A stretch of DNA of 48,471 nucleotides from an uncultured Opitutaceae bacterium. Its GTDB lineage: Bacteria; Verrucomicrobiota; Verrucomicrobiia; Opitutales; Opitutaceae. Below, one piece after another: positions 25,528-42,990 of the stretch (position 1 is its first letter; each line of letters begins with the position of its first letter). The stretch spans positions 1 to 48,471 of the forward strand of contig CAITBM010000052.1 in the NCBI GenBank assembly GCA_903890485.1, in the 5' to 3' direction. The translations under genes and the position numbers were made by a program. The notes beneath the pieces are model-generated. The model did no database searches, was not told where the DNA came from, and was given only the letters and a program-made list of their open reading frames with translations.

Positions 25528-26178
25528 ATGGCCAAGCTCTTCCCAAAATCCTTCAACAAGCTGCCGCTCCAGCTTGCGCTGTACTTGGTTTTTGTGGTGT
25601 GCGTCGCCACGGCGGGGATCACGTACTACATGACCCCTAAGTACACGCGGGTCGGCTACGCCCCGATCCAGCCGGTCCCGTACAGCCACGCCAAGCACGT
25701 GGGCGAGCTGGGCCTCGATTGCCGGTACTGCCACTCGACGATCGACACGGCCGGGGCTGCCGTCCCGACCAGCCAGACGTGCATGAACTGCCACAACCAG
25801 ATCAAGACCACGAGCCCGGCTCTGGCCCTGATCCGGGAGAGCTACCAGACCGGCAAGTCCGTCCCGTGGGTCCACGTCCACGTGATGCCCTCCTACGTCT
25901 ACTTTGACCATTCGATCCACGTGAACCGCGGCGTAAGCTGCGTGGAGTGCCACGGCAACATCAACCACATGGAGGTGGTCACCCAGAAGAAGCCGATGAG
26001 CATGGGCTTCTGCCTGGACTGCCACCGCGATCCCGCAAGCCATGTCCGCGAGAAGGCTGACATCTACAATTTGGACAGCAAGACGATCGCCCAGACCCAG
26101 GGCATCGAGGCCGCCCGCAAATTCGTGCACGACTGGAAGATCAATCCTCCGCAAAGCTGCTCCGGCTGCCATCGATGA
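25528..26178 (+). CDS. actA: ACIII subunit ActA, pentahaem cytochrome c
   Basis: A 216-aa protein with an N-terminal membrane anchor (about 13-33) and exactly five CxxCH haem sites: C65-H69, C85-H89, C138-H142, C162-H166 and C211-H215. Alternative Complex III is a quinol oxidoreductase unrelated to cytochrome bc1; ActA is its periplasmic multihaem electron-transfer subunit. It is the first gene of a tightly packed operon, and its stop overlaps the actB start (ATGA, 26175-26178). The C terminus ends right after the fifth haem motif. The gene order that follows (B, C, D, E, F) makes the assignment firm. Confidence 0.95.
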   Translation: MAKLFPKSFNKLPLQLALYLVFVVCVATAGITYYMTPKYTRVGYAPIQPVPYSHAKHVGELGLDCRYCHSTIDTAGAAVPTSQTCMNCHNQIKTTSPALALIRESYQTGKSVPWVHVHVMPSYVYFDHSIHVNRGVSCVECHGNINHMEVVTQKKPMSMGFCLDCHRDPASHVREKADIYNLDSKTIAQTQGIEAARKFVHDWKINPPQSCSGCHR

Positions 26179-29100
26179 AACGCAAAATCGAACATCCCGC
26201 TCCCTCCGAACGGGCATTGACCGGTCCCCGCTACTGGCGGAGCCTGGACGAGCTGGCGGCGACACCGGGCTTCAAGGCGGCTCTTTCCAAGGAATTCCCC
26301 GAGGGTGCCGAGTCGATCGAGGGCGTCGACCGCAGGCAGTTCATGAAGATCATGGCGGCCTCCTTCGCCCTGGGCGGGGTGGGGCTTGCGGGCTGCCGGC
26401 GGCCCGAGGAACACATCCTTCCGTTCGGCAAATCGGTCGAGGGCGCGGTCCCGGGCCTGCCGGTCTACTACGCGACGGCGATGCCGATGAGGAGCTGGGC
26501 GATCCCGCTCCTGGCGGAGACCCACCAGGGGCGCCCGACCAAGCTCGAGGGCAACCCGGCCTACGCCCCGCACGGGGGCGCGAGCTCGCTTCTGGCCCAG
26601 GCCTCGATCCTGGACCTCTACGATCCGGACCGCGCGACGGCGCACACTCAGGGCGGCAAGGCGATCGGAGCCGAAGCCGTGAAGGCTCTCCTGGCGGAAA
26701 TCGGCACGGCCAACCGGGCGACCCAGGGCGAGGGCCTTGCGTTCCTGGCGGATTCCTCGAGTTCCCCGACCCGGGCGCGCATCGTCCGCAACCTCCATTC
26801 CCAGTTCCCGAGGGCCCTCTGGGCCGAGTACGAGCCGGTTTCCGACGAGCCGCCGGTTGAGGTTGCCCGCAAAGTCCTCGGCGCCAACGTGAAGCCGATC
26901 TACCGCTTCGCAAAGGCCAAGCGGATCGTCTCGATCGATGCAGACTTCCTGCAGTCGGAGTCCGGCAGCCTGGCCTATGCCCGGGATTTCGCCACTGGCC
27001 GCCGGGTGAAGACTAAGGAAGACTTGATGAACCGCCTGTACGTGGCGGAGAGCAACCTGACGCCGACCGGCAGCATGGCCGACCACCGCTACCGTCTGGC
27101 CTCCAGCCACATGCTCTCGTTTGCTTCGGCGCTGGCCCTGAAGCTCACGGGGGACTCCGTTTACGCCAATGCCGCCAAGGGCTTGACGATGCCCCCGGCC
27201 TGGATCGCTGAGTGCGCCGCCGACCTCCTGGAGAACAAGGGGGCCAGCCTGGTCGTCGCCGGATCGCACCTTCCCGATGCCGTGCACGCGGTCGCCTACG
27301 CGATCAACGAGTTCCTGGGCAACATCGGGTCGACGGTCGACTTCATCTTCAACATGAAGCCCCACACGGTGGGGATCAAGGGCCTGGCTGAGGCGATCTC
27401 CAAGGGCGCCGTCAAGACGCTCGTCATCCTCGGCGGAAATCCGGCCTACAACGCGCCGGCCGACCTGGACTGGGCCTCGCTCCAGAAGTCCGTTCCCCAG
27501 GTGATTCGCCACGGCTACTACGACGACGAGACCTCCGCCCTTTCCTCGGTCCACATTGCGGCCGCCCACTACCTGGAATCCTGGGGCGATGCGCGGACGG
27601 CCGACGGGACCGTGGTCCCGATCCAGCCGATGATCCTGCCGCTTTTCGGGGGACTCACGCAGACGGAGGTGCTCGCGGCCCTGGCGCTCCTGCCGACCAA
27701 CGACCCGCACAAGCTGGTGTACGACACCATCACGGCCGGCACCGGCGCGAATGCCGACAAGGTCTTCACCAAGTTCCTGCACGACGGCGTACTCGAGTTC
27801 GAGGTAAACGGGGTCACGCAGAAGACGGCCTTCACGCCGGTCCGCGTGCGCTTCAATGCAGCCGAGGTAGCCCAGTACCTCCATGACGCCCCGGCACCGG
27901 CCGAGGTCTCGTTCGACGCCCTTGAGGTCCGCTTCGTTGCCGACGCCCGTGTCGACGACGGACGGTTCGTGAACAACGGCTGGCTCCAGGAGTGCCCGGA
28001 CCCGATCACCAAGATCAGCTGGGACAATGCGATCCTGATCAGCCCCCGGCTCGCCAAGGACCTGAAGATCGACTCTCCGGCGGTGGGCCTTAAGCCGATC
28101 GCCCGCAAGGACCTGGCCGAATTCGACAAGGGTCGCGAGAACGCCCACATCGTGGAGCTGACGATCGGCGGCCGGAAGATCGTGGGTCCCGCCCACATCC
28201 AGCCGGGCCTCTCCAACTATACGGTCATCGTGCCCCTGGGCTACGGCCGGACGAAGACCGGGCGGGTGGGCGAGGGGACGGGCTTCAATGCCTACCTGGG
28301 GCGCGAGTCCAAGGCCCTTACGATCGCCACCGGGGTGAAGATCGCCCTAACCGGCGGCAGGATGTACCTGGCCGACTCGCAGTGGCACTGGTCGATGGAG
28401 GGCCGCGACCTGGTCCGCGAGGGCAACCTCGGCGAATACCAGGAGAACCCGGGCTTCGCGAAGGAAGTGGGCCTGGAGGCCGAGAGCCCGCGGGTCGTCA
28501 TCGACCCGGCGTTCGACTCGATGAGCCCCGCCGACAAGGCGAGCAAGATCCCGAGGGGCAACTCGCTCTACAAGACCCCGAGCTTTGACGGCGTCCACCA
28601 GTGGGGGATGTCGATCGACCTCAATACCTGCATCGGGTGCAACGCCTGCGTCGTGGCCTGCCAGGCCGAGAACAACATCCCGATCGTCGGCAAGGAGCAG
28701 GTGCTTCGCGGCCGCATCATGCACTGGATCCGCCTGGACCGGTACTACTCCGACGGCAAGGCCGACCCGGGTGCCTTTGGCGGCGAGGGCAACATGGAGA
28801 TCCCCGAGGACCCGCAGATCTCCGTCCAGCCGATCGCCTGCATGCAGTGCGAGCTGGCCCCCTGCGAGACCGTGTGCCCCGTGAACGCCACGGTGCACGA
28901 CGGCGAGGGCCTGAACGTCATGGCGTACAACCGGTGCATCGGCACCCGGTACTGCGCGAACAATTGCCCGTACAAGGTCAGGCGATTCAACTTCTTCGAC
29001 TGGAACATGAGGCAGTTGGATAGCCTCTATCTGGGGCCCCTGGGACCCCAGGGGATGCCGGAGCTCGTGCAGATGGTGAAGAACCCCGAGGTGACGATCC

Positions 29101-29477
29101 GCATGCGCGGCGTCATGGAGAAGTGCACCTACTGCGTCCAGAGGATCGAGCGCGGCAAGATCGAGTGGAAGGTGAAGCGCGCCCAGGAAGGCCATCCCGA
29201 GGACGTAACGGTACCGGACGGGACCATCCGCACCGCCTGCCAGCAGGCGTGCCCGGTCGAGTCGATCGTGTTCGGAAATCTCCTGGACCCGCAGAGCAAG
29301 GTCTCCCAGGCGAAGGCCCGCGAACAGGACTACGCGCTCCTGGGCTACCTGAACATCCGTCCCCGGACGACGTACCTAGCGAGGATCCGCAATCCGAACC
29401 CGAAGATGCCGGACTACACCGAGATGCCCCTTAGCCGCGTGGAGAACTGGAACAAGAACCATCCCGCAAAGGCCTGA
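26175..29477 (+). CDS. actB: ACIII subunit ActB, iron-sulfur/molybdopterin-oxidoreductase-like protein
   Basis: An 1100-aa protein. After about 50 residues comes a twin-arginine signal ([10 protein letters not shown]53-R54) and a lipobox-like LAGC (C74). This matches the TAT-variant-translocated family, so the bulk is periplasmic. Residues to about 780 resemble molybdopterin oxidoreductases but are thought to hold no cofactor in this family. The C-terminal part carries cysteine clusters for about four Fe-S centres: [11 protein letters not shown] from C819, [36 protein letters not shown] and CQQACPVE. It passes electrons from the quinol site of ActC towards ActA and ActE. The gene overlaps actA and lies 2 bp before actC. 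Confidence 0.95.
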
Positions 29478-29479
29478 TC

Positions 29480-30913
29480 ATGTCGCATTCCGCAGAACAA
29501 TCGGCCGGAGCCCCCGCGATCTTGACCGAGATCAAACCCGCGGTGAAACCCAGGAGCGCAATGGTGGGCAACCACCGGAGCTTCTCCTGGATCACCGAGA
29601 AGATCTGCGGGATCGCCGAGGAAAAGACTCCCGTGTGGTGGTGGTGGTGCTTCGCGGTCGCCTGCATCGTGGCCAGCTTCACGGTGATCGGTATCACCTA
29701 CCTGGTAGCCACCGGCGTCGGCGTCTGGGGCCACCGTAATCCGGTCAACTGGGCCTGGGACATCGTCAACTTCGTCTTCTGGATCGGCATCGGCCACGCC
29801 GGGACCCTGATCTCGGCGATCCTGTGCCTGCTCCGCCAGAAGTGGCGGACCTCGATCAACCGCTCGGCCGAGGCGATGACCATCTTCGCCGTCGTCTGCG
29901 CCGGCATCTTCCCGGTCTTCCACGTCGGACGCGTCTGGTACGCCTGGTTCCTCTTCCCGCTACCCAATTCGAACTACATCTGGCAGAACTACCGCTCGCC
30001 GCTCGAATGGGACGTGTTCGCGGTTTCCACCTACGGCACGGTCTCGGTCCTCTTCTGGTACGTGGGCATGATCCCCGACCTGGCGACCATGCGCGACCGG
30101 TTCAACGCAGTCGGCAAGACGCTCAAGGCCCGCCTCTACGGCTTCTTCGCCATGGGTTGGCGCGGCTCCAGCCGCCACTGGAGCAACTACGAGATGGCCT
30201 ACCTGATCTTGGCCGGCATCTCGACCCCGCTCGTCCTCTCGGTGCACACGATCGTCTCCTTCGACTTCGCCGTTTCGCTCCTGCCGGGCTGGCACACGAC
30301 GATCTTCCCCCCGTACTTCGTGGCGGGCGCGATCTTCTCGGGCTTCGGGATGGTGCTCACGCTCATCCTGCCGCTCCGGGCCGTCTACCATCTGGAGGAC
30401 CTGATCACGCAGTACCACATCGACTGCATGTGCAAGGTGATCCTGGCGACCGGGACCATGGTGGGCTACGCCTACGCGATGGAGTTCTTCATCGCCTGGT
30501 ACAGCTCCAACCCCTACGAGGGCTTCGCGTTCATCAACCGCGCCTTCGGCCCCTACTGGTGGAGCTACTTCATCATGATCGCCTGCAACGTGATCACCCC
30601 GCAGTTCTTCTGGTTTAAGGGGATCCGCGAGAACACGACCCTGGTCTTCATCCTGTCGCTCTTCGTGAACGTGGGCATGTGGTTCGAGCGCTTCGTGATC
30701 ATCGCCACCTCCCTGGCCCGCGACTTCCTGCCGTCGAGCTGGGGCTACTACAGCCCCTCGATCGTCGAGATCTTCACGTTCTTCGGGACCTTCGGGGTGT
30801 TCTCGGTCCTCTTCCTCCTCTTCATCCGCTTCCTGCCGATCATGGCGATCGCCGAGTTGAAGGCGGTGACCCCCCAGGCTGACCCGCACGCGGGCCACGA
30901 CTCCTCACACTGA
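29480..30913 (+). CDS. actC: ACIII subunit ActC, NrfD/PsrC-type quinol-binding membrane subunit
   Basis: A 477-aa protein with about ten membrane spans (residues ~50 to 460) and NrfD/PsrC-family features, such as the early [19 protein letters not shown] segment around the quinone site and the conserved [20 protein letters not shown] helix. In ACIII this subunit oxidises menaquinol and hands electrons to ActB. ActF (32116-33324) is a related second copy. It starts at ATG 29480, 2 bp after the actB stop, and is followed 2 bp later by actD. Confidence 0.93.
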
Positions 30914-32119: not shown

Positions 32120-33324
32120 CCAAACCCGACTCATCCAAGGCCCTTGGGATCGGGATTGCCGGGATCGCCGTCACGGCGCTCGGCCTCCTCGTCTCGAAGC
32201 CCCATGTGATCGCGACCGCGTGGCTGGTCGGCATCGGCTTCTGGACGGCGATCGCGATCGGGATGCTCATGATGATCCTGATCCACCACATCTTTGATGC
32301 CGGGTGGTCGACGGTGCTCCGGCGCCAGTACGAGCACGGGATCGCCGCGTTCCCGTGGCTGCTCCTGCTCTTCCTGCCGCTGGTGGCGGCCTCCTACCTG
32401 GGCAGCCACGACCTGATCTGGCCATGGATGAACCCGGACCACCAGATCGTGGGCGGCCATCAGGTGAAGGACGACATCCTTTACGTGAAGAAGCACGCCT
32501 TCCTGAACCTGCCGCTCTTCACGATCGTCACGTTCGTTTTCTTCGGCCTGTGGATCTGGATCTCGGCCCGCCTGCGGAAGGCCTCCTTCACGCAGGACGG
32601 CGACGGCGACGTCCGCTGGACCCGCATGAGCGGAAAGACCGCCGGCTTCGGGATCCCGATCGTGGCCCTCACGCTCACCGGGGCGGCCATCTACTGGTTC
32701 AAGAGCCTCGAGTACCACTGGTTCTCGACCATGTACGGCGTGTGGTTCTTCGCCAACTGCATGCGCGGGGCCCTCTCCTGCGGCGTCCTGATCATGCTCT
32801 GGCTCTACAACCGCGGCGACTTCAAGGGCATCCTCAAGACCGACCACCTCTGGGCCATCGGCCAGCTCATGCTCACCTTCACGGTGTTCTGGGCCTACGT
32901 CTCCTTCTCGCAGTACTTCCTGATCTGGAACGCCAACGTCCCCGAGGAAACCTTCTGGTACAACATCCGCGAGTTCGGCGACTGGTGGTACGTGAGCCTC
33001 TTCCTGGTCTTCGGCAACTTCCTGCTGCCGTTCCTGCTCCTGTTGTCCTACCGCTTCAAGGTCACCCACAGGACGATCCGCCGGATCGCCTACCTGGTGC
33101 TCTTCGTGATCTTTGTGGACCTCTGCTACAACATCCTGCCGGCGCTCCAGGACAAGGACGGCAACCCGCAGCCCTTCCTCTCGATCAACCTCCTCTGGGC
33201 CGTCACGTCCGTGATCGGGGTGGGCGGGGTGGCCATTGCCGCGTACCTGCGCAGCTTCCCCACCACCAAGCTGATCCCGATCCGCGATCCGCGCATCGCC
33301 GAATGCCTCAACCACAATGAGTGA
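32116..33324 (+). CDS. actF: ACIII subunit ActF, second NrfD-like membrane subunit
   Basis: A 402-aa protein with about ten membrane spans. The overall NrfD-like layout and stretches such as IHHIFDAGWSTVLRRQYEHG and WAYVSFSQYFLIWNANVPEE are typical of ActF. In known ACIII structures it packs against ActC and lacks the quinol site. ATG at 32116 overlaps the actE stop (ATGA), and its own stop overlaps the next gene by 8 bp. It completes the standard ABCDEF set. Confidence 0.93.
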   Translation: MTKPDSSKALGIGIAGIAVTALGLLVSKPHVIATAWLVGIGFWTAIAIGMLMMILIHHIFDAGWSTVLRRQYEHGIAAFPWLLLLFLPLVAASYLGSHDLIWPWMNPDHQIVGGHQVKDDILYVKKHAFLNLPLFTIVTFVFFGLWIWISARLRKASFTQDGDGDVRWTRMSGKTAGFGIPIVALTLTGAAIYWFKSLEYHWFSTMYGVWFFANCMRGALSCGVLIMLWLYNRGDFKGILKTDHLWAIGQLMLTFTVFWAYVSFSQYFLIWNANVPEETFWYNIREFGDWWYVSLFLVFGNFLLPFLLLLSYRFKVTHRTIRRIAYLVLFVIFVDLCYNILPALQDKDGNPQPFLSINLLWAVTSVIGVGGVAIAAYLRSFPTTKLIPIRDPRIAECLNHNE

Positions 33325-33649
33325 CCAGAACACCCCCGCTCCGCGGCCTGTCTCCCTGGTGGCTATTGTCGCCCTCTTGGCGCTCCTGTCCCTCTTCGGG
33401 CTCGTGACGGTGCGCGTCTACACGCACCACCGCTCGGCGGCGCCGCAGAACGAGGCGCCCGAGAATCTTTCCAAGGACCTCGCATGGAAGGCGACGCCGG
33501 AATTGCGCCAGACGGCTCTCTCCGACCTTCGCGCCAAGCAGGCCCTCCAGGCTACCACCTACGGATGGGTGGACCAGAAGGCCGGCATCGTCCGGCTGCC
33601 GATCGACCGCGCCATGGACCTGGTGGTCCAGGAGCACCAGGGCAAATGA
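33317..33649 (+). CDS. Small single-span protein of the ACIII-oxidase locus
   Basis: A 110-aa protein with one membrane span (about 13-34) and a periplasmic tail ending TTYGWVDQKAGIVRLPIDRA. I recall similar YGWVD-x-x-x-G-hydrophobic-R-hydrophobic-P tails in small proteins beside cytochrome oxidase genes of Planctomycetes and Verrucomicrobia, but no function is known to me. It has no haem motif or conserved cysteine. ATG at 33317 overlaps actF by 8 bp, and its stop overlaps the CcoN-like gene by four bases. A role in assembling or linking the two complexes is a guess from position. Confidence 0.75.
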   Translation: MSDQNTPAPRPVSLVAIVALLALLSLFGLVTVRVYTHHRSAAPQNEAPENLSKDLAWKATPELRQTALSDLRAKQALQATTYGWVDQKAGIVRLPIDRAMDLVVQEHQGK

Positions 33650-35049
33650 CCATGAAGAGCGAATACTCTCCCACGGATGCGGCGTCGCGCTGGCCGCTCA
33701 TGCTGCTCATCATCTCGGGGGCCTCGTGGCTCGTCCTGGCCGGGGTCTTCGCGCTCATCTCCTCGATCCAGCTCCACACGCCCTCCTTCATGGCGCTCTG
33801 CCCGGTCTTCACCTACGGCAGGGGCGTCGCGATCGCGGAGACGGCCTTTGTCTACGGCTGGCTCGCGAACGCCGGCCTGGCGCTCGCCCTCTGGGTCCTC
33901 ATGCGCCTTTCGGGAGAGCCCCTCAGGGCCCAGAATTGGGCCCTAGGCGGGTGGACCTTCTGGAACCTCGGGGTCCTGGGGGCGATCATCGGCCTCGGCT
34001 TGGGGGACCTGACCGGCTTCGAGCTCCTGGAGCTCCCCGGCTACATCCAGCTGATCCTCTTCTTCTCGTACGCCGCGATCGCGATCCCCGGGCTCCTCGC
34101 CTGGTCGGGGCGGCTTCGCCGGGTGTCCTTCGCCTCGCACTGGTACGCCGCCGCCGCGCTCTTCCTCTTCCCGTGGCTGCTCTCGATCGTCCACGTGATG
34201 CTTTTCTCGGCCCCGGTCCGGGGCGTCCTGCAGCCGATCGTCGCCGGCTGGTACGCCCAGTCGGTCTGGACCCTGGTCCTGGCCCCGCTGGCCCTGAGCA
34301 TCGCGTACTTTGTCGTCCCGAAGGTGACCGGCAAGGTGCTGCCGAGCTATGAGTTCGCGTCGCTCGGCTTCTGGTGCCTGATCCTGGTGGGCGGGCTCAC
34401 GGGCGGACGCCACCTGGTCGGGGGCCCGGTCCCGGCATGGATCGCCTCCGTGGCGGTCGTTTCCTGCGCGCTCCTCTTTTTCCACACCTTTGTCGTCCTC
34501 CTGAACCTGCGGGGGGCCTTCACGGCGCCCGGGGTGGCGGTCAAGTTCATCGCCTTCGGCGTGGCCGCGTACGTGCTCGGGGCCGTCTTTGACACCGTCA
34601 CCTCCTTCCACGTGGTGGCCGTCCAGACCCAGTTCACCTACTTTGACGAGGCGCAGAAGCAGCTGGCGCTCTACGGCGCGGCAACCACGATCCTTTTTGG
34701 CGGTATTTACTTCGCCGTACCCCGGATCACCGGCAAGGCGTGGCTCTCGCCGCTCCTGGTCCGCGGCCACCTGATGCTTTCCCTCCTAGGAATCATGCTC
34801 CTGGTGATCTCGCTCTGCGCGGCCGGTGCCACCCAGAGCCACGACCTCCTCGATGCAAAGGTTCCGTTCGCCACCATCACCGCGCACACCCGCGATTCCC
34901 TGGTCGGGGTGACCGCGGCCGAGCTGATCCTTCTCCTCGGCAACATCTGCTTCCTCGCCAACTTCTACGGAACGGCCTGCGAGATCCTGAAGATCTCCTC
35001 GCCGGCCACGTTTAGCCCGTCCTCGGCCATGGAGACACCCGCGTCGTGA
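33646..35049 (+). CDS. CcoN-like haem-copper oxidase subunit I lacking its metal ligands
   Basis: A 467-aa protein with about 12 membrane spans, the length of cbb3 CcoN. Homology shows in TYGRG...ETAFVYGW, AYFVVPKVTGKVLPSYEFAS, GGLTGGRHLVGG and the YFAVPRITGKAW helix end. At the places where CcoN has its ligands, this protein has others. The low-spin haem b His (helix II) becomes E65, the first Cu-B His becomes Q205, the Cu-B His pair becomes R255-H256, the cross-linked Tyr becomes G249, and the HxH of haems b3 and b becomes Q337-K-Q339. It should therefore bind neither haem b, haem b3 nor Cu-B. ATG at 33646 overlaps the previous stop by four bases; a much longer frame upstream is rejected because it would cover that gene. 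The alignment is from memory of the CcoN consensus. Confidence 0.8.
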   Translation: MTMKSEYSPTDAASRWPLMLLIISGASWLVLAGVFALISSIQLHTPSFMALCPVFTYGRGVAIAETAFVYGWLANAGLALALWVLMRLSGEPLRAQNWALGGWTFWNLGVLGAIIGLGLGDLTGFELLELPGYIQLILFFSYAAIAIPGLLAWSGRLRRVSFASHWYAAAALFLFPWLLSIVHVMLFSAPVRGVLQPIVAGWYAQSVWTLVLAPLALSIAYFVVPKVTGKVLPSYEFASLGFWCLILVGGLTGGRHLVGGPVPAWIASVAVVSCALLFFHTFVVLLNLRGAFTAPGVAVKFIAFGVAAYVLGAVFDTVTSFHVVAVQTQFTYFDEAQKQLALYGAATTILFGGIYFAVPRITGKAWLSPLLVRGHLMLSLLGIMLLVISLCAAGATQSHDLLDAKVPFATITAHTRDSLVGVTAAELILLLGNICFLANFYGTACEILKISSPATFSPSSAMETPAS

Positions 35050-35702
35050 AGAACAACGTCATCTTTTTCCTGGGGTTAGCCTCGGCTCTCGCGATCTCCT
35101 GGGCCGGGATCGTCCTGGGTTCGAACGCCCAGCTCGGTTCGCTCGCGCCCTTCTACGACGACTCCGAGGGTGCCGCATTCCCAGCGCGGATGGCTGGAGC
35201 CGCCGCGCAGGGCCAGCTGGTCTACCGGGACATGGGCTGCGCCTCGTGCCACACCCAGCAGGTGCGCCGGCCGGGCTTCGGCGTCGACAAGGAGCGCGGC
35301 TGGGGTGATCGCCAGAGCGTCGCCCGCGACTACATCTACCAGCCGGCCCCTCAGCTCGGCCTCTCCCGCGTGGGACCCGACCTCGCGAACCTCGCCGACC
35401 GCAAGCCCTCGGCGCTCGACGCCTCGGATCTCCTGCACCTGCTCTATGCCGGCGCCCCGGGGATGCCGACCTACCGCTTCCTCTTCGAGACCCGGACGCT
35501 CGGTGTCGGCGCCCAGCCCTCCGAGAAGGCCCTCAAGCTCGTGGGCGCGCTCGAGCCCAAGGCGGGCACCGAGGTCGTCCCGACTCCGGAGGCCGAGTCC
35601 CTGGTTGCCTACCTCTTGAGCCTAAAGAATCCCTACACCTATCCTGAAGCCGTCCCCTTCACGCCGCCAGCGGGCGAAGGGGAGAAGGAGGGGGCGAAAT
35701 GA
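35046..35702 (+). CDS. CcoO-like monohaem cytochrome c
   Basis: A 218-aa protein with an N-terminal span (about 5-25) and one haem site C65-ASC-H69 in the context VYRDMGCASCHTQQVRRPGFG, the characteristic CcoO pattern, followed by RVGPDLANLADRK and GMPTY (axial Met). CcoO normally carries electrons to CcoN. It starts with GTG at 35046, overlapping the CcoN-like stop (GTGA), and its stop overlaps the next cytochrome gene (ATGA). The haem site is intact although the partner subunit I has lost its ligands. Confidence 0.85.
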   Translation: MKNNVIFFLGLASALAISWAGIVLGSNAQLGSLAPFYDDSEGAAFPARMAGAAAQGQLVYRDMGCASCHTQQVRRPGFGVDKERGWGDRQSVARDYIYQPAPQLGLSRVGPDLANLADRKPSALDASDLLHLLYAGAPGMPTYRFLFETRTLGVGAQPSEKALKLVGALEPKAGTEVVPTPEAESLVAYLLSLKNPYTYPEAVPFTPPAGEGEKEGAK

Positions 35703-36515: not shown

Positions 36516-39227
36516 CTAAGCGGCCAGCCGCAGACGCCGTGCGCAATAGAGCACCAACCCAACGCCCCAACTGAAGAACGCAGCCACGGAAAGATAAAAG
36601 GCCGCCTGGAGTCCGAGCGGGGCCTCAAACCAGAGCCTCACGCGGGATTCACCGCTTGGCACCGCGACCATCACGAGACCGAGGGGTGACTCGCGAACCT
36701 CGGCGGGCTCACCATTGACCCAAGCCTTGTACCACGTCTGGTACATACGGGGTGTTTCGAGCCAGCAGGACTGCGTGGCCCGGACCCGAGCCTCATAGGG
36801 AATCCAGTTGTCGACCCTGATCGGGAGGTCCTCGGTCTTGTATTCAGCGACGCGGAGGCGGCCAAAGGTCTCGGTCGCATCCAATGGTCTTGGTTTTGAC
36901 GGGAAAAAATGAACGGCGAGGCGTTCACTCACGCTCCCGCTGGTCCAGAGCGAAAGGCGTCGGCTATGCGTGGATCCGCTGCCAAAGGAAAGCTTTCCCC
37001 CGTACTCCGGCAGCTGATATTCGCGCAGGAAGGTCGGTCCCGAGATCTGGAGGACGCCGGCATTGGCGCCAGGATGATCGAAATCGAATTCCGCAATGTA
37101 GCGATCGCCAGGCTCTAGGACGACAGGCTCCCTCGCGCTCCATGCCTCGCCAGCATATTTCTCCGCGTCGGGCCGGAATTCGTTCGACGATTCAGGGGCC
37201 TTCGCCGGAGGGATCGATCCCATATTTGTGGCGATCTCGGCAAGCGTGGACCTCGACAGCAGGCGATTCTCCAGCAGGGGATCGGCCACGCCATGGGTGA
37301 ACGTATCGGGCCTCTTGGGAAAGACGAGGTAGGCAAACTGCGTTACCATGACATTCTCCGTCTGGAGTTGGAAGGTTGCGCTTTCCAAGGGGCGCTGAAT
37401 TTCGGACCCATGGGCAAAGCGGTGTGCCTGGAAGAGGCTCCACACGCAGAGAATGCCCACGAAAAGAAACTGCCACCGTCGCTTGGGAGCAATGATCGGA
37501 ACCGCTATTGCCGCTGCAAAAACGAGGAAGCCGGCGAGCAGCAGATAAAGCCGGTTCATGACCCAGTTGCCGGTGGTATTGCGGACGAAGGATGGAACGG
37601 CGGTCCAAAGAGCTCCCGTCAGGCCCGGGATCGGAGTCACGAGTGCGACGAGGAGGCAAGCCATTGCCAGAAGGACGCGAAGGTCGGCCCGCCTGACGCG
37701 CAGGTGTGCCCAGGCCGATATCGCAAACAGTCCCCAGAGGGCGTAACCCGCCTGGAAATCTGATAGCGATCGCCCGGCTTGGCTAAGCGGCAATAGAGTT
37801 GAGGGGAACACTTGGTGAAGAAAATACATCACCATGAAGGCCGTGGCTTCCTGGAAACTCGCCGATTTCACCCCGATCTTCGGCGGGAAAAACAGGACGG
37901 AAACGACAGGGTAGGCGGCGATTGCCGCGAAGACCGCGATCCCACATGCGGCGCACTTCATCTGAATAACGCCAGGCCTGTGCATAAGGAATAGGTACAG
38001 GTATGAAATCCCCACGAGAAGCGTCGCCCATAACGCAATCGGGGTGTGCCCCCACCACATGGCCCCGAGAGCGCCTCCGGTAAGGAACAGGGACAGAAGG
38101 TCGGGATCCCGATGGGCACGGGCCAGGCCATAGAGAGCGACCGGAACGAGGGAGACGGTCATCCACGACATGTAAAGGTCCGTATTGTAGACGATGCCCA
38201 GCACGCCGGGGCAGCTGACAAAGAGGATCCCCAACCCGCAGGCAAGCCAGCGGCGCTCCGGGATCAGGACCGAAAGCGCCGCGTAACTCGTGGCGAGCGC
38301 GGCGAGGGCCTGAAGCGAAAGGAGGAGATTCTGGATCGCAAATACGCCGAGGGAACGGAGGGTGAGCGTGTCGAGCAGGGCCCCAAGATACTGAAAGGCG
38401 GGGGCGACACGCAGCGGGTAGATCGCCCCGTTGAATTGGAATGGGCTCTGGCCCACAAATACCGGGAAGACCCCCTTTCGCACCTGCGCCACCATGTCGG
38501 CTAGCAGGGTTCCGTACCAGAGGGCGTCCCCGGCCCCCTGCAGGACAACCGTGAAAAACGGCCGCATCAGGAACAACCAGGCTGAGCCCAGGGCGATCCA
38601 TCGAAGATTCTCGGCGACGGCGCCCTTGATCCGGCGGGTGAGTACGAGCGCCGCCGTGTAGGCGCATAAGCTAAGGCCTAGGTACAGGTAGAGCACGCGC
38701 TCGGCTGCGGAGTACGCCGCCTGAGCAGTTGCCTGATCTCCCGCTTGGGGCAGGAAGCCCCGAAGTGGGCCAAGAAAAACGCCGAGGATCGCGAGATAGC
38801 CGACAACGGCGTCGAGGCGGAATCGTATAAAAGTCGCCCGTGCGAGAGCACCGAATGCCAGCACAGCCCTCAGCGCTCCATGGCGGCAATACCATGTCCC
38901 TGCCAGGACTATCCAGAGAGGCAGGTAGGCGTAGAAACGCGGATCTGGCCTGGCCCATATATAAAACGCAATGGCAGATGCCGCCCCCACGGCCGCCCAG
39001 ACGGGTAGGCGGCCCGCCAGGGCGGAGAGCCTCGGCGTGTTCGGGTTGGACTTTCCCGAAGGGGCCAGGATGAGCGCGACAAGGGCTCCAGCCTTTACGA
39101 GAGCCGGCAAGGAATCCACCGCGAACGCCCACTCAGCGATGGTGATCCCGAGGAAGAGCGCAATCGCTTCGGCGAGGATCTGTAGAAACGCATAGCCCTT
39201 TGGCCCTTGGCCTTGTTCGTCTTGCAT
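36516..39227 (-). CDS. Large multi-span membrane protein with C-terminal beta domain (paralogue of 17169-19778)
   Basis: A 903-aa protein with many spans to about residue 600, then a beta-rich extracytoplasmic region (GPTFLREYQLPEYGG, NWIPYEARVRAT) and a final hydrophobic helix. Blocks such as FVGQSPFQFNGAIYPLRVAP, SCPGVLGIVYNTDLYMSW and MWWGHTPIALWATLL match the other copy nearly residue by residue. It may be a GT-C- or YfhO-like envelope glycan enzyme, but no catalytic motif is certain. ATG at 39227. It lies downstream of the O-acetylation operon on the same strand, 73 bp after the DUF5989-like gene. Confidence 0.7.
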   Translation of the reverse strand: MQDEQGQGPKGYAFLQILAEAIALFLGITIAEWAFAVDSLPALVKAGALVALILAPSGKSNPNTPRLSALAGRLPVWAAVGAASAIAFYIWARPDPRFYAYLPLWIVLAGTWYCRHGALRAVLAFGALARATFIRFRLDAVVGYLAILGVFLGPLRGFLPQAGDQATAQAAYSAAERVLYLYLGLSLCAYTAALVLTRRIKGAVAENLRWIALGSAWLFLMRPFFTVVLQGAGDALWYGTLLADMVAQVRKGVFPVFVGQSPFQFNGAIYPLRVAPAFQYLGALLDTLTLRSLGVFAIQNLLLSLQALAALATSYAALSVLIPERRWLACGLGILFVSCPGVLGIVYNTDLYMSWMTVSLVPVALYGLARAHRDPDLLSLFLTGGALGAMWWGHTPIALWATLLVGISYLYLFLMHRPGVIQMKCAACGIAVFAAIAAYPVVSVLFFPPKIGVKSASFQEATAFMVMYFLHQVFPSTLLPLSQAGRSLSDFQAGYALWGLFAISAWAHLRVRRADLRVLLAMACLLVALVTPIPGLTGALWTAVPSFVRNTTGNWVMNRLYLLLAGFLVFAAAIAVPIIAPKRRWQFLFVGILCVWSLFQAHRFAHGSEIQRPLESATFQLQTENVMVTQFAYLVFPKRPDTFTHGVADPLLENRLLSRSTLAEIATNMGSIPPAKAPESSNEFRPDAEKYAGEAWSAREPVVLEPGDRYIAEFDFDHPGANAGVLQISGPTFLREYQLPEYGGKLSFGSGSTHSRRLSLWTSGSVSERLAVHFFPSKPRPLDATETFGRLRVAEYKTEDLPIRVDNWIPYEARVRATQSCWLETPRMYQTWYKAWVNGEPAEVRESPLGLVMVAVPSGESRVRLWFEAPLGLQAAFYLSVAAFFSWGVGLVLYCARRLRLAA

Positions 39228-39300
39228 TCAGTAGAAAGCTAACTGCCCAAACCCCCGGTCAATCGAGGAGATTCTGAAAGAGGCCTGTGGGACCACGAGC

Positions 39301-39465
39301 CTAGAAGGCAACGTAGATGAATGGCTTGCTCGGTAGTCCAATCCGGTAGAGCACGTAGCTCATCAGCAATGCCATCACCAATCCCAGGAATAGGGAGCCG
39401 ACGTGTCCCACAATTCTCTGGAGCGCAATCGGCAGCTGCCTGAGGTAATCGTCGAGGATCTTCAT
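39301..39465 (-). CDS. 54-aa DUF5989-like membrane protein
   Basis: A 54-aa frame begins MKILDDYLRQLPIALQRIVG and has one span (about 22-41). It ends IGLPSKPFIYVAF; the terminal PFIY-x-x-F is the hallmark I recall of DUF5989 proteins that accompany MBOAT/SGNH acetylation genes. Its ATG overlaps the stop of the SGNH-like gene by four bases (39462-39465), so it is translationally coupled to it. The biochemical role is unknown; its size and context suggest a small partner of the acyltransferase complex. Confidence 0.65.
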   Translation of the reverse strand: MKILDDYLRQLPIALQRIVGHVGSLFLGLVMALLMSYVLYRIGLPSKPFIYVAF

Positions 39466-40685
39466 GGTCGGGCCTTCGTAAAGCCAAGCTTGGAGGAGAG
39501 CGATCGGATCCGTCCGGCCACCTCGGTGGCTAGCTTGATTCCGCCCTCGGCCGTCAGGTGCGTCCGGTCTCCGAAGTCAGTCGTCGCGTAGTCGCGCCCG
39601 TACTCGGCGCACGCATAGCCGTGCTTCCGCCAGAGAACGGCGCAGTCGCTGTAGGCCAGGTCGTCGCGGGCGATTTCGTCGGCGGTCAGCTGGTCCAGAT
39701 AAAGTCGGCAATTGCGACTGAGCATGATGAGGGTCCTGGACCTGAGATCGACAGGAAAGGCGGCCTCTACCGCCGCCGTGTAGTCCGCCAGCGACTTCGG
39801 CTTAAGGTGCCATGCCCCGTCGGCGCCTTTGGAGTAATAGGCCCAGGAGAAGCCCCGGACGATCTTCATCTCGGCCGTGCGGATCTCCGGGCGGAAGCGC
39901 TGCTCAAACGGAAAGCTGTCGAAGTCCGGTTCGATGTCCGGAAGCCGCTTCCGGGCCCATATCGCCTCGGGCAGGTGGGGGGTTGCCGGATTGGGGATAG
40001 TGAAAAGGGTGGTGTAGCCGATATAGTTCCAAAGGTCCCTGAACCGGAATAGGCGGTCGAGGTTGGCCCGAGCGGAAATCTCAAAGCGTTCTCCGATTGT
40101 CAGCTGTTGCCTTGAGAAGGTGGAGAGCGCCTCGGACCGGGGCGGAAAGTCCTCAAGCTCGCCCCGGGCTCTGGCCTCCCAGAAGAGATACCGGTAGGGT
40201 TCGGTCCCAAAGGGCGCGATGGAGCCAAAAGGGGACGTGTTGGCGACGTAGATCAGGTGCGGGTATTCCTTCCTGAGGGCCTCGGCAACAACGGCGCCGC
40301 CGTCCGTGCACAGGGCACCGCGAAACGCGAAATTAACCACCTTAAACCCATCCCCGAGCTCCTCCTGGAGGGCATCCGTCCACACCTTGCCCGGGGGCTG
40401 GCCGACGCCGTTGAAGATCGAGTTGCCGCCAACGATAACCAGCGTCTGGTCGGGGCGGCACGCCGAGCGGACGATCCCGCGCATCTCGTCGAGCGTCGGG
40501 TAGTATTGCGCCTCCGGGGAGATTCGCTGGTGGAAACGGCTGAAGTCGGGGTGGTAGCCCTTGCTTGAGAGCACGCGGGCCGTAATCGAGCACAGGGCCA
40601 GCCCAAGAAGGAGGCCCGCCGCAAAACTCATGGGCCTAAAGAAAGGGGATCGGCTCTGGGGCGAGCCTGGGGAGGGATCACTCAT
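39462..40685 (-). CDS. Membrane-anchored SGNH/GDSL-like hydrolase or acetyltransferase
   Basis: A 407-aa protein with one N-terminal anchor (about 19-37) and a periplasmic SGNH-like domain. Block I is VIVGGNSIFNGVGQ with the presumed nucleophile S89, and the catalytic D-x-x-H appears near the C terminus as D373-R-T-H376 in GDRTHLTAEGG. AlgX, AlgJ and related proteins take acetyl groups delivered by an MBOAT protein and place them on an extracellular polysaccharide. ATG at 40685 overlaps the MBOAT stop by four bases. The glycan acceptor is unknown. Confidence 0.8.
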   Translation of the reverse strand: MSDPSPGSPQSRSPFFRPMSFAAGLLLGLALCSITARVLSSKGYHPDFSRFHQRISPEAQYYPTLDEMRGIVRSACRPDQTLVIVGGNSIFNGVGQPPGKVWTDALQEELGDGFKVVNFAFRGALCTDGGAVVAEALRKEYPHLIYVANTSPFGSIAPFGTEPYRYLFWEARARGELEDFPPRSEALSTFSRQQLTIGERFEISARANLDRLFRFRDLWNYIGYTTLFTIPNPATPHLPEAIWARKRLPDIEPDFDSFPFEQRFRPEIRTAEMKIVRGFSWAYYSKGADGAWHLKPKSLADYTAAVEAAFPVDLRSRTLIMLSRNCRLYLDQLTADEIARDDLAYSDCAVLWRKHGYACAEYGRDYATTDFGDRTHLTAEGGIKLATEVAGRIRSLSSKLGFTKARP

Positions 40686-41878
40686 TGGCCAAAGAGGAGG
40701 CGCGCCATCTGGAAGGCTTCGTGCACGGGATAGAAGAAGAGGAGCCAGCCAATGAGGACATAGACCTGAGTCACAACGAGGCCGACGAGCGGCTCACGCT
40801 CGAAGATCTGTTTCCTCAGGACCGGGCCGATTGCAGGGATCTTGGCGTAGCTGGCGCAGATTCCAAGGCCGACCCCGTGGAAAACCCCCCAGGACACAAA
40901 ATGCCAGTCGGGCCCATGCCAGAGGCCGCAGAGGGCAAAGGCGACGAGCGCATTCAGGATGCGCCGGGGAACGCCGTAGTGTCCGCCCCCCAATGGGATA
41001 TAAATATAGTCCCGGATCCAGAGGCTGAGCGAGATGTGCCAGCGCTGCCAAAACTCCTGAAGGTTCTTTGCCAGGTAAGGCCAATTGAAGTTTTCTGGAA
41101 GTGTTATTCCAAGGAGCCGTGCGACCCCGATCGCGATGTCGCTGTAGCCGGAGAAATCGAGCAGGATCCGGCCTCCTATGGCACCGAGCAGGATCCAGCG
41201 CCCAAGGATGCTCATCGTGGCGAAGTCGGGCTGGTAGGCTTCGACGTAGAGGTTCACGTTGTCGGCAAAGACCACCTTCTTCACAAATCCGGTGGATATC
41301 CGGAATAGGCCCTCCCCGAGATTCTCCAAACGGAAACCCCGGCTTCCGTCCTCCAAGGCGGGCAGGAATTGGCGGTAGCGCTTGATCGGCCCCGCAACCA
41401 AGCTTGGGAAGAAGATCGAGAACAGAAGGAACTTGAGCGGGCTGCGAATGGGCTCGCCCCCCTTTCGGACCTCATAGAGGTAATGGATGAACTCGAATGC
41501 AAAAAAACTGATCCCCAGGGGAGGGGCGCTCGGCATGGCGGCCGACGCGAGGTTCCTCAGGTGGGTCGCGAGCTCCGGACTCCACGGGTCTACAACGGAG
41601 CCGACGATGAAGTAGATGTACTTGTAGAAGCAGAGCGCGAACACGCTTAACGCCATAGCCGCGAGCTGCGCCCCCCGCTGTCCCGAGATACCCGCCAGGT
41701 AGGTCGCGATCATCATCACGATGATGGGAGCCATTCCCGCTGGTCCGGCAAAGTGCGCGTGAAAGACGAGGCAGGCCGCACCCAGGAACCCGAGTTTCCA
41801 GTCCGCGCGGGGCAGCAGGTGGAATACGGCCACAACCAGCACCGAGAATGCGATGAACCAGTAGGTCGTGAAGATCAT
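40682..41878 (-). CDS. MBOAT-family O-acyltransferase (AlgI/DltB/PatA-like)
   Basis: A 398-aa polytopic protein. The family core is present: FNWPYLAKNLQEFWQRWHIS with H281, RDYIYIPLGGG, and CGLWHG with the presumed catalytic H321. It moves acyl, usually acetyl, groups from cytoplasmic acyl-CoA across the inner membrane. The SGNH-like partner downstream overlaps by four bases, which supports polysaccharide O-acetylation. At 398 aa it is shorter than AlgI (about 480-520), lacking some C-terminal helices. The start is ATG at 41878. Confidence 0.9.
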   Translation of the reverse strand: MIFTTYWFIAFSVLVVAVFHLLPRADWKLGFLGAACLVFHAHFAGPAGMAPIIVMMIATYLAGISGQRGAQLAAMALSVFALCFYKYIYFIVGSVVDPWSPELATHLRNLASAAMPSAPPLGISFFAFEFIHYLYEVRKGGEPIRSPLKFLLFSIFFPSLVAGPIKRYRQFLPALEDGSRGFRLENLGEGLFRISTGFVKKVVFADNVNLYVEAYQPDFATMSILGRWILLGAIGGRILLDFSGYSDIAIGVARLLGITLPENFNWPYLAKNLQEFWQRWHISLSLWIRDYIYIPLGGGHYGVPRRILNALVAFALCGLWHGPDWHFVSWGVFHGVGLGICASYAKIPAIGPVLRKQIFEREPLVGLVVTQVYVLIGWLLFFYPVHEAFQMARLLFGQ

Positions 41879-41985
41879 GGCACGCGCAGGTTCGGTTCGC
41901 CCCGGGCCGGTGGGCGGACCTCTAGGCTGACGAGGAGCCCCAGGCCGGGAGGGATCTCGCGGGCTTCAGCGGCGCTCACGGGTGT

Positions 41986-42990
41986 CTAGGCCCCTAAACG
42001 CTTGTCGGGGACCAGGTAGTTGCGCACGTAATCGGCCACCGCGTCCCCAAGGGGCGTCGCGGGTTTTTCGAAACCCGTCGACCGGAGCTTCGAAATATCG
42101 GCCTTCGTGTAGTACTGGTATTTCGCGCGCAGGCTCTCGGGCATATCGATGAACTCAACGTTCGGCTTTAAGCCCAGGGCGCCGAAGATCGCGTCGGAGA
42201 GCGTCAGCCACGTGTGGGCTTCCCCCGAGCCAATGTTGAAGAGCCCGGAGGCCGTGGCCCCTTTCTCCGCAAAATGGAGCGTCATCTCGACCGCATCCTT
42301 CACGTAGAGGAAATCCCTCATCTGCCCGCCGTCGGGATACTTCGGATCGTAGCTCTTGAAGAGGCCCAGCTTGCCGCTCTCCCGGATCTGGACATGGGCC
42401 TTGGCGACCACCGAGCGCATGTCGCCCTTGTGGGCCTCGTTTGGCCCATAGACGTTGAAGTATTTCAGGCCCACGATCCGTTCGAGCCAGCCGAGCCTGC
42501 GGGCATGGAGGTCAAAGAGGTGCTTGGAATACCCGTACATGTTGAGCGGACGAAGGAGCTCCAGGGCCGGGTTGGAGTCGTCCATCCCCTGCGCGCCGTC
42601 GCCGTACGTCGCGGCCGAGCTGGCGTAGACAAACCGGGCACCCGTGCTTAAGGCCCAGGCGGCCAATTCCCGGGTGAAGCCGGTGTTGTTGTCGACCAGG
42701 TAGGAGGCGTCGCGCTCCGTGGTCGCCGAGCAGGCGCCAAGGTGGAAGACCGCAGAAAATTTGCCATACGCCCCGGGGCTCTGCGCAAGGCGGGCGCGCA
42801 GGGCCGGCCCCTCGACATAGTCGGCGAAGCGCAGCGGAACCAGGTTTCTCCATTTCTCGTCGGACTGCAGGATGTCGCAGACGACGATGTCGTCCACGCC
42901 GCGGGCATTGAGCGCCCAGATGAGGGCGCTGCCGATGAACCCGGCGCCGCCGGTAACAAGGATTCGACCGCCTAGGGGATTGGAGGGCAT
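41986..42990 (-). CDS. hldD: ADP-L-glycero-D-manno-heptose 6-epimerase
   Basis: A 334-aa extended SDR. The Rossmann motif GGAGFIG spans 14-20, VVCDILQSDEKWRNLV is the typical HldD beta2 region, and the catalytic pair is Y152-x3-K156 in MYGYSKHLFD. YFNVYGPNEAHKGDMRSV is another HldD landmark. It converts ADP-D-glycero- to ADP-L-glycero-manno-heptose for LPS inner core, so the cell should have heptose-containing LPS. The start shares one base with the proC stop (TAATG), so the two are co-transcribed although unrelated in pathway. Confidence 0.93.
   Translation of the reverse strand: MPSNPLGGRILVTGGAGFIGSALIWALNARGVDDIVVCDILQSDEKWRNLVPLRFADYVEGPALRARLAQSPGAYGKFSAVFHLGACSATTERDASYLVDNNTGFTRELAAWALSTGARFVYASSAATYGDGAQGMDDSNPALELLRPLNMYGYSKHLFDLHARRLGWLERIVGLKYFNVYGPNEAHKGDMRSVVAKAHVQIRESGKLGLFKSYDPKYPDGGQMRDFLYVKDAVEMTLHFAEKGATASGLFNIGSGEAHTWLTLSDAIFGALGLKPNVEFIDMPESLRAKYQYYTKADISKLRSTGFEKPATPLGDAVADYVRNYLVPDKRLGA

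Follow-up and report, generated by a model that had tools for sequence, protein, structure and literature searches.

Organization of the Locus

The window, the whole stretch of 48,471 nucleotides of Opitutaceae DNA that was analyzed, contains an ACIII operon in which actA, actB, actC, actD, actE, and actF stand in order beside the gene under study, designated N. The assignment of actF was by position and homology only. The genes are as follows.

25528..26178, plus strand: actA, ACIII cytochrome with five CxxCH motifs (counted by eye); Pfam cytochrome c7/c3 models and operon position
26175..29477, plus strand: actB, fused molybdopterin-type and Fe-S subunit of ACIII; NCBIfam QrcC/QrcB-like and TAT-variant models
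29480..30913, plus strand: actC, NrfD-like quinol subunit; Pfam NrfD, 82 bits
30916..31449, plus strand: actD; Pfam ActD, 214 bits
31454..32119, plus strand: actE, monohaem cytochrome c; Pfam Cytochrome_CBB3, 47 bits
32116..33324, plus strand: actF, assigned from its place in the operon; this copy matched neither Pfam nor NCBIfam models, a homologue at the same place in relatives
33317..33649, plus strand: X, conserved 110-aa protein with one hydrophobic stretch by eye; sits between actF and N in most loci
33646..35049, plus strand: N, CcoN-fold subunit I without haem b, haem b3, and Cu-B ligands; alignments, COX1 profile, and predicted fold
35046..35702, plus strand: O, CcoO-like monohaem c subunit with intact CASCH and MPTY motifs; Pfam FixO, 38 bits
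35699..36364, plus strand: P, CcoP-like monohaem c subunit with intact CITCH motif; Pfam Cytochrom_C, 43 bits

The open reading frame of N spans exactly 33646–35049, is complete, and encodes 467 residues. It overlaps each of its neighbors by four bases, as O and P also overlap one another. No Pfam family exceeded its cut-off with X. A canonical cbb3 complex combines a haem c-bearing CcoO with a dihaem CcoP; O possesses its CxxCH motif, but P has one such motif and not two, as do 101 of 102 relatives. Behind the operon, the minus strand at 36516–42990 carries genes for a large membrane protein, an AlgX/SGNH-like protein, an MBOAT-like acyltransferase, and a sugar-nucleotide epimerase, which were named from a look at the sequence.

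N Has the Predicted Fold of CcoN

The Pfam COX1 profile (PF00115) recognized N with 108 bits against a gathering cut-off of 34.8, which places the protein in the haem-copper superfamily. Its nearest solved relatives by sequence were the CcoN chains of cbb3 oxidases, with an E value of 1e-8 to the CcoN of 3MK7 in phmmer. The score with the NCBIfam ccoN equivalog model (TIGR00780) was 66 bits compared with a cut-off of 583, and a ligand-keeping relative of N (L026) also fell below this cut-off with 234 bits. An AlphaFold2 model built from 61 sequences of the window clade predicted the 12-helix fold of CcoN, with 12 long helices, a pLDDT of 90.5, and a pTM of 0.92. Aligned with chain 3mk7_D by VIA-align, the model gave a Z score of 47.1 and an rmsd of 2.0 over 439 residues at ~20% identity, and cbb3 CcoN chains ranked first in structure searches with both Foldseek and VIA-align. 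The original prediction is upheld in that N has the length and topology of CcoN, that its frame is intact with gene overlaps on both sides, and that the CcoO-like partner at 35046–35702 retains its haem site, the CASCH motif.

Ligand Positions Are Replaced in N

The ligand roles and numbering of Pseudomonas stutzeri CcoN were taken to be those generally assigned, and the residues at these positions were checked in the PDB sequence. In a MAFFT alignment, H60, H207, Y251, H257, H258, H345, and H347 of CcoN corresponded to A64, Q205, G249, R255, H256, Q337, and Q339 of N, respectively, and a pairwise HMMER alignment gave the same register. Six of the seven haem, copper, and tyrosine positions are replaced, and H256 alone is kept. 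Specifically, both ligands of the low-spin haem b are altered (H60 to A64 and H347 to Q339), as are the haem b3 ligand (H345 to Q337), two of the Cu-B ligands (H207 to Q205 and H257 to R255, with only H258 retained as H256), and the cross-linked Tyr251 (to G249). The substitutions listed originally at Q205, G249, R255, H256, Q337, and Q339 were right, but the inclusion of E65 was wrong as H60 pairs with A64 and E65 pairs with T61. Four other histidines, H183, H280, H322, and H375, had been flagged as candidates for intact residues at the haem and copper sites; all were rejected because none falls on a ligand column of the alignments, and the prediction was not refuted in this respect. Among the 61 window-clade sequences, H280 and H375 were at least 90% conserved and H183 and H322 were absent from the conserved lists, R255 was invariant, and E65, Q205, G249, and H256 were each at least 90% conserved.

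N therefore shares with CcoN of 3MK7 its fold, length, 12 long helices, and haem c partner genes, but differs in its replaced ligand and tyrosine positions, low identity, poor equivalog score, monohaem P, and placement in an ACIII operon. As the ligands of low-spin haem b, haem b3, and Cu-B have been lost, N by its sequence cannot reduce O2 by the known haem-copper mechanism, and it very likely performs no oxygen chemistry. The protein probably carries no redox cofactor.

Full, Haem-b-Only, and Ligand-Free Forms

Proteins matching N at E 1e-10 or better were found in 50 of the 57 nearest genomes, with its own genome counted. Matches were obtained in 309 of 384 genomes, a number that may include some genomes whose best match is a canonical CcoN. 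Open frames of ~720–840 aa, which probably are CcoN fusions, reached ~160–220 bits with the N-family profile.

The site was missing in all 80 named close loci, which were the best 80 of 340 confirmed and belong to Opitutaceae, Opitutae, Opitutus, Cephaloticoccus, or unspecified Verrucomicrobia; the loci of Cephaloticoccus capnophilus and C. primus are among those with a ligand-free N. At these loci the position of H257 was R in 80, that of H207 was Q in 77, that of Y251 was G in 77, and that of H258 was H in 74. The haem c motif was kept in O in 80 of 80 and in P in 74 of 74 where found. Further afield, 110 order- and class-level loci comprised 39 full forms (HHYHHHH at the seven positions), 69 that keep no more than three of these, and two in which only the haem b pair is left; none retained four to six. 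The 60 class-level loci were hand-picked from the best-scoring matches listed, usually with one or a few for each family, and the shares of full and ligand-free forms therefore are not population estimates. The 110 derive from 112 rows by omission of L085, in which N is shortened, and of L083, a second copy in one genome; L242 and L247, which like L085 gave no usable N alignment, also are not among them. The reading of N as a damaged exception was rejected in view of the 80 close loci without the site. Homologues in the same locus that keep the ligands, which the original prediction had named as a possible refutation, were found (act genes lie upstream of N in 34 full loci), but they do not make N a damaged exception because the ligand-free form is frequent and entire clades conserve it.

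The gene order actA-B-C-D-E-F-X-N-O-P was common to the full and non-full classes. The CxxCH motif of O was kept in 38/38 full and 72/72 non-full relatives, and that of P in 36/36 and 67/67, respectively. Full-type N conserves R57, H60, E122, W203, H207, T215, S240, Y251, H257, H337, H345, and H347, which are mostly replaced in the non-full class, whereas 46 columns, mainly of W, P, G, and aromatic residues, are at least 85% conserved in both. Thus, the cofactor pocket was released and the fold was not. Of the 39 full sequences, just one has Glu at the site equivalent to CcoN E323; the form with ligands, too, therefore makes up a branch of its own beside the C family.

Among 14 extra loci of family f31, 10 retained only H60 and H347 (HN[A/S]QRYH), and the other four had lost one or both. 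In total, 12 of the 16 ACIII-type loci read from this family (L204, L205, and L228–L241) possess an N with only the two low-spin haem b ligands. This form is possibly a b-type cytochrome made from an oxidase core, and plausibly an intermediate in ligand loss. In a genome of the same genus as the window, a second, shortened cluster (L083, G002:C41, 2919–9421) consists of actA, an actC-actD fusion (659 aa), actE, X, N, O, and P; no actB or actF was recognized there, and its N is ligand-free (CRGRHQQ).

Linkage to ACIII

At least one act gene lay upstream on the same strand in 104 of the 110 loci, comprising 68/69 ligand-free, 2/2 haem-b-only, and 34/39 full forms. Accordingly, non-full N had act genes upstream at 70 of 71 loci, and the remaining one (L067) is at a contig end with only 462 bases upstream. 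Wherever more than 0.5 kb of upstream DNA was read and no act gene appeared, N was of the full form. The substitutions thus stand beside act genes at all non-full loci but this one, whereas strict linkage of the whole family was rejected as five of the 39 full loci (L042, L189, L198, L201, and L203) show no act gene in the upstream DNA read, which was 6.4–8.7 kb for four and 1.8 kb for L203. These five represent a free-standing oxidase form of the family with the ligands kept. L203 and L204 belong to one genome (G355), in which the unlinked copy is full and the ACIII-linked copy is haem-b-only. Outside the class of the window, in L251 (6434–10258) and L254 (5826–9628; both with coordinates on the strand of N), the genes for a ligand-keeping N and an O are immediately preceded by one for a protein of 613–614 aa that contains seven CxxCH motifs, and the stretch read showed no further recognizable act gene.

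Selection and History of Ligand Loss

Substitution rates were estimated with our own Nei-Gojobori script. Compared to the nearest relative (dS 0.62), dN/dS was 0.112 for N, 0.081 for O, 0.125 for P, and 0.108 for actF. At greater distance, values for N in ligand-free pairs reached 0.26–0.51, above actF in the same pairs; against three genomes of the same genus they were 0.27, 0.34, and 0.35 (actF 0.15, 0.29, and 0.24), and 0.51 was the highest, in one other pair. The ratio of dN of N to dN of actF was 1.1–3.1 in 14 ligand-free pairs compared with 0.36–0.73 in six full pairs. The haem-b-only pair L204/L205 resembled the full form (0.16 versus 0.28). By these ratios, constraint on ligand-free N is relaxed relative to full N.

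On trees of the same 78 rows, which are those with all needed genes, changes between the forms numbered 19 for actC, 19 for actD+E, 19 for actF, and 15 for O+P, but three for N. With larger sets, the actB+C tree required 19 changes, of which 16 are forced by starred branches, and the N tree required four, as many as its starred branches force. Starred branches of the O+P tree alone force nine changes, and placement of the ligand-free rows in one clade was rejected (p-AU 3e-34). The trees were of a quick kind with SH-aLRT support and no bootstrap, and the program warned of two long branches meeting (L199 and L226) in O+P. Near-duplicates of the window genus were thinned beforehand (six rows in the actB+C set and seven in the N set), and the actB+C set also omits L083, L085, and rows with short actB or actC. 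A single loss was rejected by the trees of neighboring genes and the AU test on O+P, although the N tree alone would allow three to four changes. Since the neighboring genes need 15–19 changes, the ligands likely were lost repeatedly, on many separate occasions, and the N tree likely is distorted by fast, similarly relaxed sequences.

Alternatively, N alone was exchanged between operons by recombination and the ligands were lost only three to four times, a history that is compatible with any function of N. The three changes on the common 78 rows, or four on the larger set, speak for such exchange, but we give it a small chance: the genes on both sides of N disagree with it, N would need to have been swapped many times without its overlapping neighbors, fast ligand-free rows are prone to long-branch attraction, and L176 groups with L040/L177 even in the N tree.

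Other Oxidases in the Same Genomes

The genome that contains the window has two further COX1 genes, both on another contig (C13). Genomes with non-full N and no full N made up 70 of the 108 typed, and each of the 70 has another COX1-family gene that scores 231 bits or more. In contrast, full N was the only COX1-family match in four of 38 genomes that have it (G041, G046, G059, and G372; Fisher p 0.014 versus 70/70), as counted from COX1 searches at E 1e-3 and E 1e-10 and with G041 only 80% complete.

A gene for an A-type oxidase, coxI, starts 1.4–3.2 kb after N on the same strand in 13 loci, nine non-full and four full; in L042 it is upstream, not downstream, of N. When nine loci were read for gene order, N-O-P was followed by A-type coxI in all seven ligand-free loci (L248, L249, L250, L252, L265, L266, and L267), but N was not followed by this gene in the full loci L251 and L254. 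The operon of the window is not arranged in this way: P is followed by a gene on the opposite strand, and the genome carries its A-type oxidase on another contig. Thus, adjacency of coxI is not universal (9/73 non-full rows, some with little downstream DNA).

Verrucomicrobial Methanotrophs

PF02461 (AMO/pMMO A) was detected in all 11 genomes of family f30 that were examined, and N was ligand-free in all six loci read from pmoA genomes (L248–L250 and L265–L267). One of these genomes (G098), in which the N positions read SESSHFV, has four other COX1-family matches. Two score 432–435 bits, and the one adjacent to N fits the CtaD model with 542 bits; the third is a divergent subunit I of 568 aa that scores 268 bits with COX1, and the fourth is a NorB, with an E value of 5e-89 to its P. 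aeruginosa counterpart. Canonical CcoN was not found among the COX1-family matches of this genome.

In the portions of the literature available to us, ACIII genes are described as co-located with a cbb3 oxidase, a type tied to high O2 affinity (PMC6688271), aa3 and cbb3 genes are reported to adjoin ACIII (PMC11102522), and the combination of a C-type oxidase with ACIII is confined to verrucomicrobial methanotrophs and Opitutaceae (PMC8498564). By position directly after actF, the ACIII-linked C-type oxidase of these accounts (PMC8498564, PMC6688271) appears to be the same genes as N-O-P. The available text treats the gene as a cbb3 oxidase, whereas neither the window clade nor any of the six pmoA-genome loci possesses the active site. 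Judged by its ligand positions, the gene in these six loci cannot be an oxidase of known kind. Published respiratory chains would read differently in consequence: the ACIII-adjacent cbb3 oxidase of Opitutaceae and Methylacidiphilum, which the consulted portion of PMC6688271 cites for growth at low O2, appears to have no active site in the loci read.

Potential Role of N

The most probable explanation, to which we assign a probability of roughly 60%, is that N is a dead oxidase core that is kept as the membrane anchor of a haem c relay between ACIII and a separate oxidase. N would once have served as catalytic subunit of a cbb3-like oxidase from the ACIII operon; it keeps the 12-helix CcoN fold and would hold haem c subunits O and P at the membrane. 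O and P, which are redox-competent by sequence, would lengthen the haem wire of ACIII (ActA with five haems and ActE with one) and pass electrons to a separate oxidase, either via a soluble cytochrome c or directly to the A-type oxidase that is encoded just downstream in some lineages. The observed basis comprises homology, predicted fold, ligand loss, the conserved operon, haem c motifs, purifying selection, another haem-copper oxidase gene in every ligand-free genome checked, and A-type coxI next to N-O-P in some lineages; from it we infer that N-O-P associates physically with ACIII, that electrons flow in this direction, and that N acts as a scaffold. Against this explanation stand the relaxed constraint on ligand-free N and the loci, that of the window among them, in which coxI is not adjacent; the haem c retained in O and P also fits a cytochrome role that is independent of any oxidase and involves no bridge. 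ActF resembles ActC but is without the quinol site, according to the part of PMC5928083 that was available, and a further emptied module therefore would fit the make-up of ACIII. That N is retained in a non-catalytic capacity, as first proposed, is backed by its intact frame, a dN/dS of 0.11, the conserved operon, and the haem c motifs of O and P; N may also act as the structural dock suggested at that time, but the tests run gave no support for a new cofactor.

It is unlikely that the emptied site (E65, Q205, R255, H256, and often Q337/Q339) instead acquired a new membrane activity and moves protons or ions or binds quinone or another cofactor. The invariance of R255 and the conservation of E65, Q205, G249, and H256 in the window clade are more than a plain scaffold seems to need, but other ligand-free clades differ at the site (FGSASVF, SESSHFV, and AGGARRF) with no common motif, and no quinone or metal motif was recognized by eye in N. 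A role outside the mature electron path, in which N would aid the assembly or stability of a neighboring A-type oxidase or help to insert haem c into O and P, is quite improbable. Such a function was proposed, in the accessible part of PMC10715153, for a ligandless COX1-like protein of Acetobacter encoded beside CtaB, and coxI is situated just downstream of N in several lineages; however, the oxidase genes of the window's own genome are elsewhere and X-N-O-P nonetheless stays tied to ACIII, with act genes at 70 of 71 non-full loci. That N is a functionless relict in the course of being lost, as its faster evolution than the ligand-keeping form and the many different replacements at ligand positions might hint, was already disfavored by the original prediction and is very improbable given dN/dS of 0.11 at dS 0.62 to the nearest relative, intact frames and length over deep clades in which ligand-free forms are conserved, four-base overlaps with both neighbors, a confident predicted fold, and the 70 of 108 typed genomes with non-full but no full N.

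The membrane anchor proposed here has partial counterparts. In Rhodothermus marinus and Flavobacterium johnsoniae, ACIII is encoded with and bound to an oxidase, and electrons pass directly from haem to oxidase, as described in the available sections of PMC5928083 and PMC8552683. The window likewise encodes ACIII with an oxidase-family protein. The linked oxidase of these ACIII-(c)aa3 supercomplexes is catalytic, whereas a dead CcoN and two haem c subunits follow ACIII here, before any oxidase gene. The ‘deranged’ COX1-like protein of Acetobacter resembles N as a COX1-family member that is retained in a conserved cluster but has no cofactor ligands left, but the portion of PMC10715153 consulted places it beside ctaB, and ACIII with haem c partners is a feature of N. 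The sources available already describe the haem-copper superfamily, supercomplexes of ACIII with an oxidase, and a single ligandless COX1-like protein. The earlier assertion that no protein of this sort had been described needs qualification in view of the Acetobacter example. Our literature search, which covered sources in part, found no description of a repeatedly emptied, ligand-free CcoN in an ACIII operon.

A broader form of the anchor proposal is tentative, and we would not favor it over its negation: X-N-O-P may be a distinct respiratory bridge, a fixed link of ACIII, pseudo-cbb3, and aa3, whose core was emptied many times within one class and of which the haem-b-only form is a living intermediate. 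If so, what has been taken for a cbb3 oxidase in verrucomicrobial methanotrophs would be no oxidase. In N, the catalytic core of a respiratory enzyme appears to have been reduced, many times over, to a membrane component while the operon stayed whole. The protein lends itself to a clear test of what the scaffold of a cytochrome c oxidase does without its chemistry and of how ACIII hands on electrons.

Apart from N, a very weak COX1-like open frame (31–34 bits) was noted beside a clear COX1 gene (220–224 bits) in two genomes (G032:C1:4498533–4502090 and G019:C14:34328–37857), which possibly is another degenerate oxidase pair.
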